A stretch of DNA of 64,000 bases from assembly GCF_001662305.1 (NCBI RefSeq), contig NZ_BDEP01000004.1:186001-250000 (forward strand), in the 5' to 3' direction. The position numbers were made by a program, and so were the translations under genes. This DNA is from Halomonas caseinilytica (GTDB taxonomy: Bacteria > Pseudomonadota > Gammaproteobacteria > Pseudomonadales > Halomonadaceae). Below, one piece after another: positions 202 through 6,620 of this stretch (positions are counted from its first letter, which is position 1; every line of letters begins with the position of its first letter). Below the pieces are notes generated by a model that saw only the letters and a program-made list of their open reading frames with translations, did no database searches and was not told the DNA's origin.

Positions 202-816
202 ATGCCAATCCCGTCGCGACTCTCGTCGCTGCTGCTGATCGCCGGCTTCGCCTCACCCGTCGTGGCCGACGACACCGATACGGCCAACGCCGTCTTTGCG
301 GCTGGCTGCTTCTGGTGCGTCGAGGAAGCCTACGACAAGGTCGAAGGCGTGGTGTCCACCACTTCGGGCTTCAGCGGCGGCGAGGTGGCCAATCCCAGCT
401 ATGACCAGGTGGTCGCCGGCGGCACCGGCCACGCCGAGGCGGTCAAGGTCGAATACGACCCCGAGCGAGTGGATTATGCCACCCTGCTGCACGTCTTCTG
501 GCGCAATGTCGATCCATTCGCCGAAGACCGGCAATTCTGCGACGAGGGGCCTTCCTATCGCAGCGCTCTTTTCCCGATGGATGCCGAACAACGGCAACTG
601 GCCGAGGCCAGTCGACAGGCAGTGGCCGAACGCTTCGATCGTGAGGTCGCCACCGAGATCAGCGACTTCGAAGCCTTCTACCCGGCCGAGACCTACCATC
701 AGAATTTCTACGACAAGAACCCCCTGCGCTACCAGTTCTACAAGTCAGCCTGCGGACGCTCGGAGCGCCTCGAGGAAATCTGGGGCGACGAGGCTGAAGC
801 CAGCACACCTCCCTGA
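202..816 (+). CDS. msrA: Peptide-methionine (S)-S-oxide reductase, exported
   Basis: Reduces the S-epimer of methionine sulfoxide in proteins, restoring oxidised methionine. The 204-residue product carries the MsrA signature GCFWC at residues 35-39 with the nucleophilic cysteine at 36, followed by the family glycine-rich FSGGEVANPSYDQV and the GTGHAEAV block. The start at 202 was chosen because GAGGAA lies seven bases upstream and it gives a clean signal peptide (basic start, hydrophobic SLLLIAGFA, then VVADD), so the enzyme probably acts in the periplasm. The 3' end overlaps the convergent MFS gene by 79 bp. Confidence 0.9.
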   Translation: MPIPSRLSSLLLIAGFASPVVADDTDTANAVFAAGCFWCVEEAYDKVEGVVSTTSGFSGGEVANPSYDQVVAGGTGHAEAVKVEYDPERVDYATLLHVFWRNVDPFAEDRQFCDEGPSYRSALFPMDAEQRQLAEASRQAVAERFDREVATEISDFEAFYPAETYHQNFYDKNPLRYQFYKSACGRSERLEEIWGDEAEASTPP

Positions 817-2045
817 ACCGTGCCTCCGGCCCGGGCCGGCTCGTTCACGGCCGCCCGACGGCGTTCACCGCGGCGCAGCCAACAGGCGATCGCGAAAGTG
901 CCGGCCAGCACCAGCCAAGACCCCAGCACCACGCCCATCCACTCCCCCAGCCACCAGAAAGGCTCCAGCCAGAAGCCTCCCAGGCTCGCCCCAGTGTAAT
1001 AGAACACCAGATACAAGGCCGAGGCACTGCCCCGGTCCTGCTCTGCGTGACGCCCCACCCAGCTCGATGCCATCGAATGGGCCAGGAAGAAACCGAAGGC
1101 ATTGACAGTCAGGCCCGCCAGGATCAAGGGCAGCCGATCGGCCAGCGTCACGGCCGTGCCCAGCATCAGCAACAGGATGCCGAAGGCCATGCAGGCAGGC
1201 TGGGAAAGCGAACGCGAAAGACGACCGGAAAGGGCCGAGCCAAAGGTTCCGCTGAGATACGTCAGGAACAGCAGGCCAAGCCATTTTTCCCCCAGCTCGA
1301 AGGGAGGCTGTGCCAACCGGAAGGTGATGTAGCTGTATTGATTGATGAAGATCAGGAAATTCAGCCCACCCAGTAGATAGGCGCCCACCAGCATGGGATT
1401 GCGCAGATGGGCTGCCAACCCGGCCCGTGCCTCGCGCAAGCGAAAACGGCGCGCCTGGAAGCATCGTGCCGGCGGCAGCAGGCGCCAGAACACGACGACC
1501 CCGACCAGCGTCAGGCACCCTACCGTGAGGAAACTGGCCGAGATGCCGCCCACCTCGGCCACCGTGCCGCCGATCATGCGCCCGCCGATACCTCCCAGGG
1601 TATTGGCACCGATATACAGCCCAACGGCCGACAACAGGGCAGGCTTTTCGAACTCATCTCCCATCCAGGCGATGGCCACCGCCGGCAGCCCACCGAGCAC
1701 GAACCCCTGCACGGCACGCAGGACCAGCAAGAGCTCGAAGTTCGGCGCAAGCGCCGCTACGCAGGCCAGCACCACCGACAGCAATCCAGCCAGCAGCAAC
1801 GTCAGACGCATGATGCCCGCACGCCCGATGGCATCCGACAAGGGGCCGAAGACCAGCAGCGCCGCGGCCAGGGACAGCGTCGAGACGGACATCGCCAGGC
1901 TGGCAACGAGCGTCGAGATGCCATATGCCTCACGCATCAACGGCAGCAACGGCTGCGGGACATAGAGATTGAGAAACACCAGCAAGGATCCCAGGCACAA
2001 GGCCAGGGTCGCGCGCCACCAGGCACGGCTACGAACGACGATCAT
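738..2045 (-). CDS. MFS transporter, YnfM-like drug/sugar exporter family
   Basis: A 435-residue inner-membrane protein with about 12 hydrophobic segments. The first helix reads NLYVPQPLLPL, typical of the YnfM branch of the major facilitator superfamily, and the loop GPLSDAIGRAGIM is the MFS motif A between helices 2 and 3. The substrate cannot be read from sequence. The ATG at 2045 has GGAGG five bases upstream. It is divergent from a LysR-type regulator (87-bp gap), the usual layout for a regulator controlling its neighbour. The hydrophilic tail after the last helix (about 35 residues) lies antisense to the end of msrA. Confidence 0.85.
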   Translation of the reverse strand: MIVVRSRAWWRATLALCLGSLLVFLNLYVPQPLLPLMREAYGISTLVASLAMSVSTLSLAAALLVFGPLSDAIGRAGIMRLTLLLAGLLSVVLACVAALAPNFELLLVLRAVQGFVLGGLPAVAIAWMGDEFEKPALLSAVGLYIGANTLGGIGGRMIGGTVAEVGGISASFLTVGCLTLVGVVVFWRLLPPARCFQARRFRLREARAGLAAHLRNPMLVGAYLLGGLNFLIFINQYSYITFRLAQPPFELGEKWLGLLFLTYLSGTFGSALSGRLSRSLSQPACMAFGILLLMLGTAVTLADRLPLILAGLTVNAFGFFLAHSMASSWVGRHAEQDRGSASALYLVFYYTGASLGGFWLEPFWWLGEWMGVVLGSWLVLAGTFAIACWLRRGERRRAAVNEPARAGGTVQGGVLASASSPQISSRRSERPQADL

Positions 2046-3018: not shown

Positions 3019-3660
3019 TCACCCTTCGCTGGAGGCGATCACGCTGCTGTCGAGACGCTGCGCCAGATGCTGGGTATCCAGGGCTCGCCGACTCTGCCAG
3101 TAATAGCGCTGCCAGTACGGGTTATCCAGGGAGGAGAGTTTGACACCCCGAGATGTCGAGGCATGCAGGAAGCGACCGTCGCCAACATAGATGCCCACAT
3201 GACGATAGGCCCCGGGAGGACGGAAGAACACCAGGTCGCCGGGGCGCAGCTCGTCACGCGACACGCGACGCCCCTCATGGATCTGGCGAGCCGTGGTGCG
3301 TGGTATCTCGAGGCGAAAGGTATCGGCAAAGATATTCTGCACCAGCGCCGAACAGTCGACGCCACGACGCGAGGTGCCGCCCAATCGATAGGGCGTGCCC
3401 AGCCAGCGCTCGTGCTGGGCCAGCAGAGCCTGGCGGATCAGGGTGGGAGGCGGATTGCCCAGTTGTCGTGCCTGCCGGATGGGATTGTCCGCCGGCGACA
3501 TCATCGGGCCATACCCCTCGGGCAACCCCGGCAGATCGCGAGCGAAGTAGTTGTCCACCGGCTCGTCCGGCGACGAGGAACCTCCCGAGGCGGCACAGCC
3601 CGCCAGCATGACACACGACAACGCTACGGAAACGAGGCGACGCGACGTCGGGTTGATCAT
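3019..3660 (-). CDS. NlpC/P60 cell-wall endopeptidase lipoprotein
   Basis: A 213-residue outer-envelope lipoprotein expected to cleave peptidoglycan stem peptides (Spr/MepS-type D,L-endopeptidase). The signal peptide ends in the lipobox LAGC with lipidated Cys22. The NlpC/P60 domain spans about 75-200 and shows the catalytic set: Cys103 in VDCSAL, His154 in YRHVGIY and His166 in FLHAST. A proline-rich linker separates lipid anchor and enzyme. The gene is monocistronic, with a candidate promoter about 210 bp upstream. Confidence 0.9.
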   Translation of the reverse strand: MINPTSRRLVSVALSCVMLAGCAASGGSSSPDEPVDNYFARDLPGLPEGYGPMMSPADNPIRQARQLGNPPPTLIRQALLAQHERWLGTPYRLGGTSRRGVDCSALVQNIFADTFRLEIPRTTARQIHEGRRVSRDELRPGDLVFFRPPGAYRHVGIYVGDGRFLHASTSRGVKLSSLDNPYWQRYYWQSRRALDTQHLAQRLDSSVIASSEG

Positions 3661-3953: not shown

Positions 3954-6428
3954 TCAATGCAGCAATCGCTCGTCTCCCGGCAGGGTATCCACATGCATCG
4001 GCGCCCAATGGCGCGGACGCGCACCGGGAAAATCCAGACTCGCCCAAGGCCCCGCCAGCGGCGGCGCGGCGGCGAGCCAGCTCGCCAGGGCCTGGCGAAA
4101 GCCGCCCAGAAAGGCCTCGCGCTCGGGGGTCTCCCCCATGAAGAAGGAAAAACCGGCATAGAGGCCTCGCGCGTACTCCTCCCAGCCCCCGTAATGACTG
4201 GCCGCCAGGGCATGGGCGCGTCGCAGCCGGGACAGGAAGTCTGCCTCGCCCAGCCAGTCCAGCTGCCGACCGGCAATGGCAAGATCCACTGCCTGGGCCA
4301 GATCCCAGGCCGTCAGGTCCAGATCGTTGCAGCCATCCTCGTTGTCCCGCACGCGCTTCAGGCGCAACAGGTGATTACGCTCCTCCTCTCCGCATTCATC
4401 GCTTTCCAGGGTCGCGATCTCCGAGGCAAGGCGCGCCGGATTGAGGGTATAAGGCGCATAGTTGATCTGGTACTCCTGACGATCCCCGACCTCCAGCAGG
4501 TAATCGATGAATTCCGCCAGACCTTCGGGACCATTCACGGCGTAGTGGCCGTCCACCCACTCCCGTATCGAAGCACATTCGCGTTCGCTCTCCGGCTGCG
4601 GCAGGCTCCAGATGGCACTGTTGAGCGGACCGACCAGGGCCATGGCAGTGAATTGGCTGAGTCCCGGGCGCGGCCCCGGTTCACGCCACGCGCCACCCCG
4701 CCAGTCGAGCCAGTGAAAAAGACTACCCGGATCGTCACGATGCCAGAGGATCTCCGCCGTCAGGGACGGCTGCTCGGGCTCGGGCAACAAGGCCTCCCAC
4801 TGCGCCCAGGCCGACAACAAGCGGCGGGCATCGGGATAGAAGCGGCACAAGGAGCCCTGCAGCGCCGCCGCCAGTTCCGCCAGGTCGGAGCGCTCGAACC
4901 ACTCGCTGTCCATGGCCATCTGCAGATGGAACGCAAATTTCTCCGCCATGTGGATGGTCGCGGCATGACGGCTGGCACGCCCCAGGGCATCGCGCCCGGC
5001 CAGGTCGTCACCCGCGACCTGACCGAAGGGCGTTCTCGATGACGGCAATGCGCCGTGGGCTGCATCCGCCGCGAGTTGATTGAGGTGATGGGCCTGGGCC
5101 GGCAACCAGTAACGGGCCAGCGCCTCCACGCCTTCATCGGCATGCAGGTCAAGGGTTTCAGCCAGGTAGCCTCGCGCGTCTTCGCGCCGCGCCGGCGACA
5201 GGCTCGGCGCCACCCCCTGGCGCATCGCCAGCTCGGGTTCCCGCACCGCTGCCAGCGCCAGGATCCAATGGCGCGGGTCGCGACGCCAGTCGCGTATGCG
5301 CGCTCGCGCGGCGTCCAGCAAGTCGGCATCGATCAGTTCCTGCAGGACCGGCTTCCAGGGACTCGCCGGGGCATGCAGGAGCAGTCGCCAATCGGCCTCG
5401 AAGTCGCCCAGGAGATCCCGTCCCTCGAACAGGCTCCGCCCCCGCTGATAGGCCCGGGCAAGCGCCAGCCAATCGCTGTAGCGGCACAGGATGAGATCCG
5501 CGCCGTGCAAGGCGATGTCCCGGGCTTCGTCGTCGGCCAGCCAGCCGAGGCAGGCCCCGGCCCAGGCCAGGTCGATCAGCCGCAACCAGTCCCAGGCGGC
5601 CCATTCCAGTAGCTCGCCCCTTTCCACGAATTCCAGCAGGACACGACCGGCCTCACGATCGCGCGGCGCCAGACCGGCGTGCCAGCGCCGACGCGCCTCC
5701 GCATCGGCCTCGCGCAGCCGGTTGGCATCCAGATCCCAGGCCTGCCGATCGCCCTGGGCACCCAGCCACAAGAGCACCCGTATCAGCTCATCACGCCCCG
5801 TCACCTGCCAGGCCTCGGCCAGCCAGGCCTCGAGACCCTGCCAGTCCAGCGTGCTCGCCGAGGCTTCCAGGATCGGGCTGAAGGCGGCCCGCAGCCGCCA
5901 CACCCGCGCTTCGGGCTCGTCCGGCCACAATGCCAATGCCTGTCGATTGGCAAGCAGCCAGTCACGCAGCATTTCCCAGGTCACGCCGTCGCCATCCCTC
6001 TCCAGAGTGGCCAAGGCCTCGCAGGCGTCGGCGAAACCGTCGTCACCGTGTACCCAGCCTTCATCGTTCCGCGCACGACGCAACGCTGCCAGCCAATCCT
6101 CCAGGCTGACATGGTGGGCATGCACTTCCTCGGCCAGGCGTTGGCCCCACTGCCGGGCCCGAGACTCGCTCAACCACCCAGCCGCCCCAGCCAAGGCCGC
6201 CACTTCCAGACCAGCCAGCAGCCGGGCCGGATCGGGATGAGCGCTGTCCAGCGCCTCCAGCAGGCGCCAACCAAGCTCCCCCCGGTCGACGACCTCGAGG
6301 CTCGCCAGGCGAGAGCGCGCCACTTCCGGCTCGAGCGCAAGAGGATCAGGCGCGAAGGCCCAACCGCACAACACCAGTTGCTGGGCCCACCAGGCATTCA
6401 AGGGATCGACCAAGGCACACCTCGCCAT
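3954..6428 (-). CDS. Large DUF1266-like protein with three repeated modules
   Basis: An 824-residue soluble protein with no signal peptide or membrane segment and many Trp, Ala and Leu residues. I see the DUF1266 pattern (W..tgRdeLl..L.wL...G....) followed by (aWDl.ra..La..g...gwls..ea...) and a closing (y.sW..f...y..Gr.f) three times, at about residues 12-118, 200-340 and 640-765. The C-terminal copy is clearest (TAWDLAQAVDLAIAG, then HYGGWEEYARGLYAGFSFF). DUF1266 proteins such as E. coli YbeU/YbeR have no established function and are normally single-domain. The ATG at 6428 lacks a ribosome site; a TTG at 6413 preceded by GAGG is an alternative start. It is divergent from gabD with no evident link. 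Confidence 0.75.
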   Translation of the reverse strand: MARCALVDPLNAWWAQQLVLCGWAFAPDPLALEPEVARSRLASLEVVDRGELGWRLLEALDSAHPDPARLLAGLEVAALAGAAGWLSESRARQWGQRLAEEVHAHHVSLEDWLAALRRARNDEGWVHGDDGFADACEALATLERDGDGVTWEMLRDWLLANRQALALWPDEPEARVWRLRAAFSPILEASASTLDWQGLEAWLAEAWQVTGRDELIRVLLWLGAQGDRQAWDLDANRLREADAEARRRWHAGLAPRDREAGRVLLEFVERGELLEWAAWDWLRLIDLAWAGACLGWLADDEARDIALHGADLILCRYSDWLALARAYQRGRSLFEGRDLLGDFEADWRLLLHAPASPWKPVLQELIDADLLDAARARIRDWRRDPRHWILALAAVREPELAMRQGVAPSLSPARREDARGYLAETLDLHADEGVEALARYWLPAQAHHLNQLAADAAHGALPSSRTPFGQVAGDDLAGRDALGRASRHAATIHMAEKFAFHLQMAMDSEWFERSDLAELAAALQGSLCRFYPDARRLLSAWAQWEALLPEPEQPSLTAEILWHRDDPGSLFHWLDWRGGAWREPGPRPGLSQFTAMALVGPLNSAIWSLPQPESERECASIREWVDGHYAVNGPEGLAEFIDYLLEVGDRQEYQINYAPYTLNPARLASEIATLESDECGEEERNHLLRLKRVRDNEDGCNDLDLTAWDLAQAVDLAIAGRQLDWLGEADFLSRLRRAHALAASHYGGWEEYARGLYAGFSFFMGETPEREAFLGGFRQALASWLAAAPPLAGPWASLDFPGARPRHWAPMHVDTLPGDERLLH

Positions 6429-6620
6429 ACGTCAGGTTCGGGGAACGCACGACGCGCCCCTGTGAATTCGGCGACACAGTGTAACGGAAACCGGGCGTCG
6501 CGCCGATGCTCGACTTCCCTGCCAGAAAGATCGCCTCGGGAAAGACGACGCGGGGCTTGGCGAGATGTTTTAAATAATGCACACTCGTCAAACAAGATAG
6601 TCATCCAAGCGAGTCTTCCC

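Follow-up and report, generated by a model that had tools for sequence, protein, structure and literature searches.

An open frame of 824 codons occupies positions 3954-6428 of the window (the whole stretch of DNA analysed, 64,000 nucleotides of Halomonas caseinilytica) and lies on its minus strand; a sequence-only reading, which gave no strand, had taken it for a protein of 824 residues in which a DUF1266-like pattern occurs three times. Upstream and divergent are genes for an aldehyde dehydrogenase and a class-III aminotransferase, which we take to be gabD and gabT. Downstream come an NlpC/P60 gene on the same strand, a LysR gene on the opposite strand and an MFS transporter gene, and the neighbouring frames with a family match also include a sodium:solute symporter. 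The features are listed below; residues are numbered on a protein of 819 residues, here and throughout, unless 824-residue (P0001) numbering is stated.

6478-6491, minus strand: promoter-like conserved element with TACACT; no clear -35 box by eye
6418-6423, minus strand: Shine-Dalgarno sequence GAGGTG, 4 bases before the TTG; most relatives continue as TGA, resembling an in-frame stop
3954-6413, minus strand: four-module DUF1266 gene, 819 aa, TTG start, stop included; PF06889 127.5 bits; start revised by comparison with relatives
6063-6329, minus strand: module 1, eroded DUF1266 copy, residues 29-117; hhalign E 3.1e-5, shuffles and model
5424-5834, minus strand: module 2, canonical DUF1266, residues 194-330; 65.8 bits and models
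4788-5195, minus strand: module 3, probable, strongly eroded copy, residues 407-542; model, weak sequence support
4599-4733, minus strand: conserved junction between modules 3 and 4, residues 561-605; mean column information 2.24 bits (561-608)
4140-4586, minus strand: module 4, canonical DUF1266, residues 610-758; 67.9 bits, hhalign and model
3957-3995, minus strand: C-terminal tail ending in an invariant histidine, residues 807-819
3019-3660, minus strand: next gene, NlpC/P60 protein of 213 aa; lipoprotein-like N-terminus by eye

The start codon was placed by comparison of 80 loci, the best 80 of 221 confirmed relatives on GTDB contigs, whose genera are presumably all Halomonadaceae; one of them (L055) lies on a complete chromosome, and two (L087 and L098) are cut by a contig end. 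A TTG preceded by a ribosome-binding site was found in 77 of the 80 loci, and L050 has GTG at that place. The protein most likely starts at the TTG at window position 6413, five codons inside the ATG of the 824-codon frame, and is taken to have 819 residues for this reason; the frame of the sequence-only reading thus stands, but not its residue count. Two codons ahead of the start, 55 of 77 loci read TGA, 18 TGT or TGC and 4 something else; the long frame of the window has Cys at this place, its codon 4. One in-frame TGA had also been flagged by the genome search in each of 27 of the 37 same-genus rows. That the relatives decode this TGA as an amino acid, which would make the protein a selenoprotein, is next to impossible and was rejected, because the start comparison puts the TGA at the end of a GAGGTGA Shine-Dalgarno sequence 4-7 bases ahead of the TTG, before the coding frame begins, and loci with other spacing show other codons there. 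A tRNA scan of the window returned tRNA-Glu and tRNA-Ala and no tRNA-Sec. Further upstream, 65 of 77 loci carry TACACT no more than 120 bases ahead of the start, against 0.86 expected by base shuffling; its distance from the start codon varies from 40 to 114 bases. With up to two mismatches, the element has one site in the window (0.59 expected); elsewhere in the genome it has one site at one mismatch, where the minus-strand frame is amidase-like by eye.

The sequence-only reading had suggested a search with the Pfam profile PF06889 (DUF1266), which matched the whole protein in three stretches with 127.5 bits (E 8.6e-37; curated gathering score, 27 bits), and not through the C-terminal copy alone. 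Scanned separately, residues 191-390 and 624-824 (both in 824-residue numbering) scored 65.8 and 67.9 bits, each above the cut-off, and residues 1-190 and 391-623 in the same numbering gave no PF06889 match. A profile built from modules 2 and 4 recovered both E. coli proteins, YbeR and YbeU (4.5e-14 and 3.5e-13), together with six order-level single-domain loci (6.3e-11 to 1.3e-19). By the gathering score and by this reciprocal recognition, the protein is assigned to DUF1266. Members of this family had been described as usually short and single-domain, and those recovered agree: YbeR and YbeU have 235 aa and the six order-level singles 216-270 codons, the exceptions in the sample being frames of 365-421 codons and two-copy forms of 484-485. 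Single-domain DUF1266 genes at three loci (L187, L189 and L191) lie directly beside TPR-repeat proteins, and L187 also has an RHS-repeat frame upstream. For the four-module protein, NCBIfam and a sequence search of the PDB gave no match. A defence system was considered and rejected on the basis of PADLOC (no match at E 1 for this protein or three other frames), PHROGs (best E only 0.67) and plasmid and phage records (no match at 1e-5).

AlphaFold2, supplied with 58 family sequences, predicted a nearly all-helical protein (pLDDT 92.4, pTM 0.88) in which a triad of helices occurs four times, at residues 62-78/83-100/104-117 (module 1), 272-289/294-311/315-330 (module 2), 486-503/508-525/529-542 (module 3) and 701-717/723-740/744-758 (module 4). 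Compared by helix boundaries, not by superposition, the four triads are near-equal, with helices of 17-18, 18 and 14-16 residues and loops of 4-5 and 3. Module 2 folded alone kept its helices (pLDDT 93.9). In local hhalign comparisons, module 2 matched module 4 at E 1.7e-14, and module 1 matched modules 2 and 4 at E 3.1e-5 and 7.5e-5; none of 60 column-shuffled controls reached the real score of module 1 against either canonical copy. Profile comparison thus shows the N-terminal copy to be genuine, although weak. Modules 1 and 3 do not have the AWD motif seen in the canonical copies. Profile evidence bears out the three modules of the sequence-only reading as copies 1, 2 and 4, with equivalent predicted folds and with DUF1266 matches beyond the C-terminal one, but the model raises the count to four: the roughly 300 residues between modules that had seemed to match nothing probably hold a further triad of the same lengths and loops. 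The four-module anatomy, apart from module 3, is well supported.

Sequence tests of module 3 gave local hhalign E values of 0.02-0.034 and global values of 0.04-0.83. Its score was reached by 1 of 60 shuffles against module 2 and by 6 of 60 against module 4, and against reversed controls it stood at 18.4 to 14.0 for module 2 and 17.9 to 17.5 for module 4. In an ungapped sliding test, with the triads of modules 1, 2 and 4 moved over 653 offsets and two column scores, the expected register of module 3 ranked 3, 3 and 6 by BLOSUM and 14, 12 and 114 by log-odds; its N-terminal half ranked 8 and 4 of 707 by BLOSUM and fell outside the top eight by log-odds. Because these tests lie at noise, the assignment of module 3 rests on the predicted structure: it is a probable fourth DUF1266 copy, whose sequence signal is at or below noise.

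Conservation peaks in the C-terminal half. Mean column information is 1.61 bits at residues 1-150, 1.75 at 185-345 and 1.63 at 346-400, and in the C-terminal part 1.90 at 401-560, 2.24 at 561-608, 2.23 at 609-760 and 2.19 at 761-819, so that the junction has the highest mean of the seven stretches compared. The last residue is H in 77 of 77 loci, preceded by L in 76 of them, and H819 is invariant in the 58-row alignment, in a stretch (residues 817-819) predicted with pLDDT below 50. In the same alignment, 22 columns of 609-760 are invariant, ten of these being charged or polar; 185-345 has 14 invariant columns, three of these charged or polar. A natural variant in one genome (G193; L143 and L184) lacks most of module 1 but keeps the first helix. 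Counted from the TTG it has 677 aa, and its alignment begins at residue 202 (824-residue numbering) and spans 626 columns. This variant and the conservation gradient fit a scaffold that is rigid and has its essential surface on the C-terminal half.

Growth of the protein by duplication, proposed from the sequence alone, agrees with a midpoint-rooted tree of 47 rows, for which 16 of the 58 family proteins supplied their modules 2 and 4, single-module proteins 11 rows and two-module proteins 4. A branch with support 98/94 separates modules 2 and 4 together from the other 15 DUF1266 rows, and each of the two is set off by a branch of its own (94/97 and 100/98). Because the two group apart from the other DUF1266 rows, the protein grew by internal duplication, which is thus older than the sampled family diversity.

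Conservation across Halomonadaceae, left for checking by the sequence-only reading, is extensive: of the 151 family genomes sampled, 140 carry PF06889, each with exactly two matches (genomes drawn evenly from a larger group; matches at E 0.001, at least one above the cut-off). A profile of the whole protein found nothing in the other 11, ten of which belong to three genera, and this absence among sampled genomes indicates that the gene is not essential throughout Halomonadaceae. With the protein as query, all 37 same-genus genomes matched, its own included, and the 21 genomes taken from the order's other families gave no match. In a wider sample of the order, 21 of 293 genomes carried PF06889, 12 of them Halomonadaceae; in a sample of the class, 9 of 369 did, 3 of them Halomonadaceae, and outside the family the whole-protein profile gave partial matches only (at most two candidates scored per genome). 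Judged from these searches, full-length relatives are confined to Halomonadaceae among the genomes sampled. One of the genera without the gene includes two genomes in which some 410 bases separate NlpC/P60 from gabT and neither the DUF1266 gene nor gabD gave a hit, a loss at the old site. At one further locus (L147, G063), the gene is broken into frames of 672 and 255 codons, by frameshift, sequencing error or decay.

To our knowledge, no function is known for DUF1266; open-access papers mention it in passing, no study devoted to it was found among them, and neither sequence nor fold search found a solved DUF1266 structure. There is, in our estimate, an even chance that the four tandem DUF1266-type modules serve as a scaffold or adaptor in the cytosol and bind a partner through the C-terminal half. 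The protein would be soluble and nearly all-helical, with canonical modules 2 and 4 and eroded modules 1 and 3 produced by internal duplication before the radiation of the sampled Halomonadaceae. Its modules may pack into a single rigid scaffold, on which the strongly conserved C-terminal half, from module 3 through the junction at 561-605 and module 4 to the invariant last histidine, would be the face that meets a partner protein in the cytosol, module 1 being a dispensable, lineage-tuned extension. Modules 1, 2 and 4, the duplication, the conservation gradient, the family-wide retention and the start site are supported by the results above; the scaffold or binding role is plausible from the shape of the protein. 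Against it stand the conserved polar residues of module 4, which would equally suit a ligand or an active site, the missing gene in the sampled genomes of three genera, and the failure of the module 3 sequence to beat its shuffles or, against module 4, clearly to exceed its reversed control.

An unlikely alternative is that DUF1266 modules present clients to, or act beside, Hsp70/J-domain or TPR proteins, four of them being joined here in one chain, with DnaK in place of HscC. In E. coli, the gene pairs ybeR-djlB and ybeU-djlC each overlap by 4 bases and adjoin hscC and the Sel1-repeat genes ybeQ and ybeT, the J-domain matches beside the DUF1266 genes scoring below the Pfam cut-off. In Dickeya, HscC, a J-domain protein and DUF1266 stand at consecutive gene numbers in a table of PMC6329079, and PMC8215388, which makes no mention of DUF1266, describes HscC together with DjlB and DjlC as an Hsp70 system of specialised kind, with phenotypes under cadmium and UV. 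Two flanking frames were scanned at each of five single-domain loci of the order: three of these loci lie beside a TPR protein and one beside a weak J-domain match, below the Pfam cut-off. However, the neighbouring frames scanned around the four-module gene contain no chaperone family and no coupled J-domain gene, and four longer class-level loci outside the family, with six flanking frames scanned, have neither TPR nor J-domain. HscC was not found in the genome by comparison with E. coli HscC: the sole Hsp70-length frame matched, of 677 codons and in two pieces at 38-42% identity, is probably DnaK, and the other match covers 82 residues of a 377-codon frame.

Quite unlikely, in turn, is an enzyme or ligand-binding protein with its active site in module 4, in the GDRQEYQINYAPYTLN, AWD and DNxDGCN stretches, and with the other modules in a structural role. 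The surplus of invariant charged or polar columns in 609-760 over 185-345 speaks for such a site, but the model has no fold match to solved structures at E 0.001 and the protein no recognised catalytic motif. A more speculative and rather improbable extension of the chaperone link is that in this salt-loving family an accessory, chaperone-associated orphan domain became a near-universal four-module scaffold that works in a setting without HscC, and perhaps holds clients or delivers them to DnaK under salt stress, the tail with the invariant last histidine serving as a docking peptide.

That the protein shares a role in the cell envelope with the next gene downstream, NlpC/P60, is very unlikely. 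Among the 80 loci, homologous frames were found for NlpC/P60 in 76, MFS in 70 and the aminotransferase in 70 (BLAST E 1e-8 on mechanical ORFs, some flanks being truncated), and in the rows listed the NlpC/P60 gene follows the DUF1266 gene on the same strand. The two are nevertheless 293 bases apart here, and inspection by eye showed no signal peptide in the DUF1266 protein. At L105, L106 and L108, which have no NlpC/P60 hit, the mechanical MFS ORF and the end of the DUF1266 gene share 4 bases. Of 10 genomes lacking the DUF1266 protein, 6 keep an NlpC/P60 homologue, and of 12 with the protein, 2 gave none (paralogues possible); the co-occurrence is not tight, so synteny need not mean shared function.

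Returning to the scaffold or adaptor, what is new here is the set of four tandem modules; the orphan DUF1266 family was already known. The module is usually solitary elsewhere, which makes the four-copy protein a good object for learning what DUF1266 does. Its occurrence in most sampled Halomonadaceae offers a clear genetic target of one gene, and since the genome search found no second DUF1266 gene, no paralogue would mask a phenotype. Eroded copies beside canonical ones may, in addition, separate positions required for the fold from those required for function.

Among known systems, E. coli YbeR and YbeU resemble modules 2 and 4, which keep their AWD helix, WL turn and third-helix W, but each is a single module of 235 aa encoded by a gene that overlaps a J-domain gene, whereas here four modules form one chain with no chaperone family adjoining. 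Resemblance to TPR-type helical scaffolds is weak. Foldseek found no match at E 0.001 in the PDB or among predicted viral proteins, and the best VIA-align Z was 5.6 for the whole model and 4.2 for module 2 alone (rmsd 4.0, 89 aligned). The VIA-align rows, all with Z below 6 and not used as evidence, include Ctr9, nuclear pore, DSR2 and co-chaperone TPR domains, among them those of XAP2/AIP, FKBP51 and FKBP52 for module 2 (Z at most 4.2); the likeness stays within what VIA-align classes as a common helical-protein arrangement, unrelated rows having similar Z. Two-module DUF1266 proteins of the same order (L185 and L186, from G268 and G341) likewise carry tandem copies in one chain. Unlike the four-module protein, they have 484-485 codons and, by eye, a hydrophobic N-terminal stretch, and their copies group with each other and not with modules 2 and 4 (93/93, possibly a long-branch join). 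With that long-branch warning, the two-module form is probably a separate duplication.
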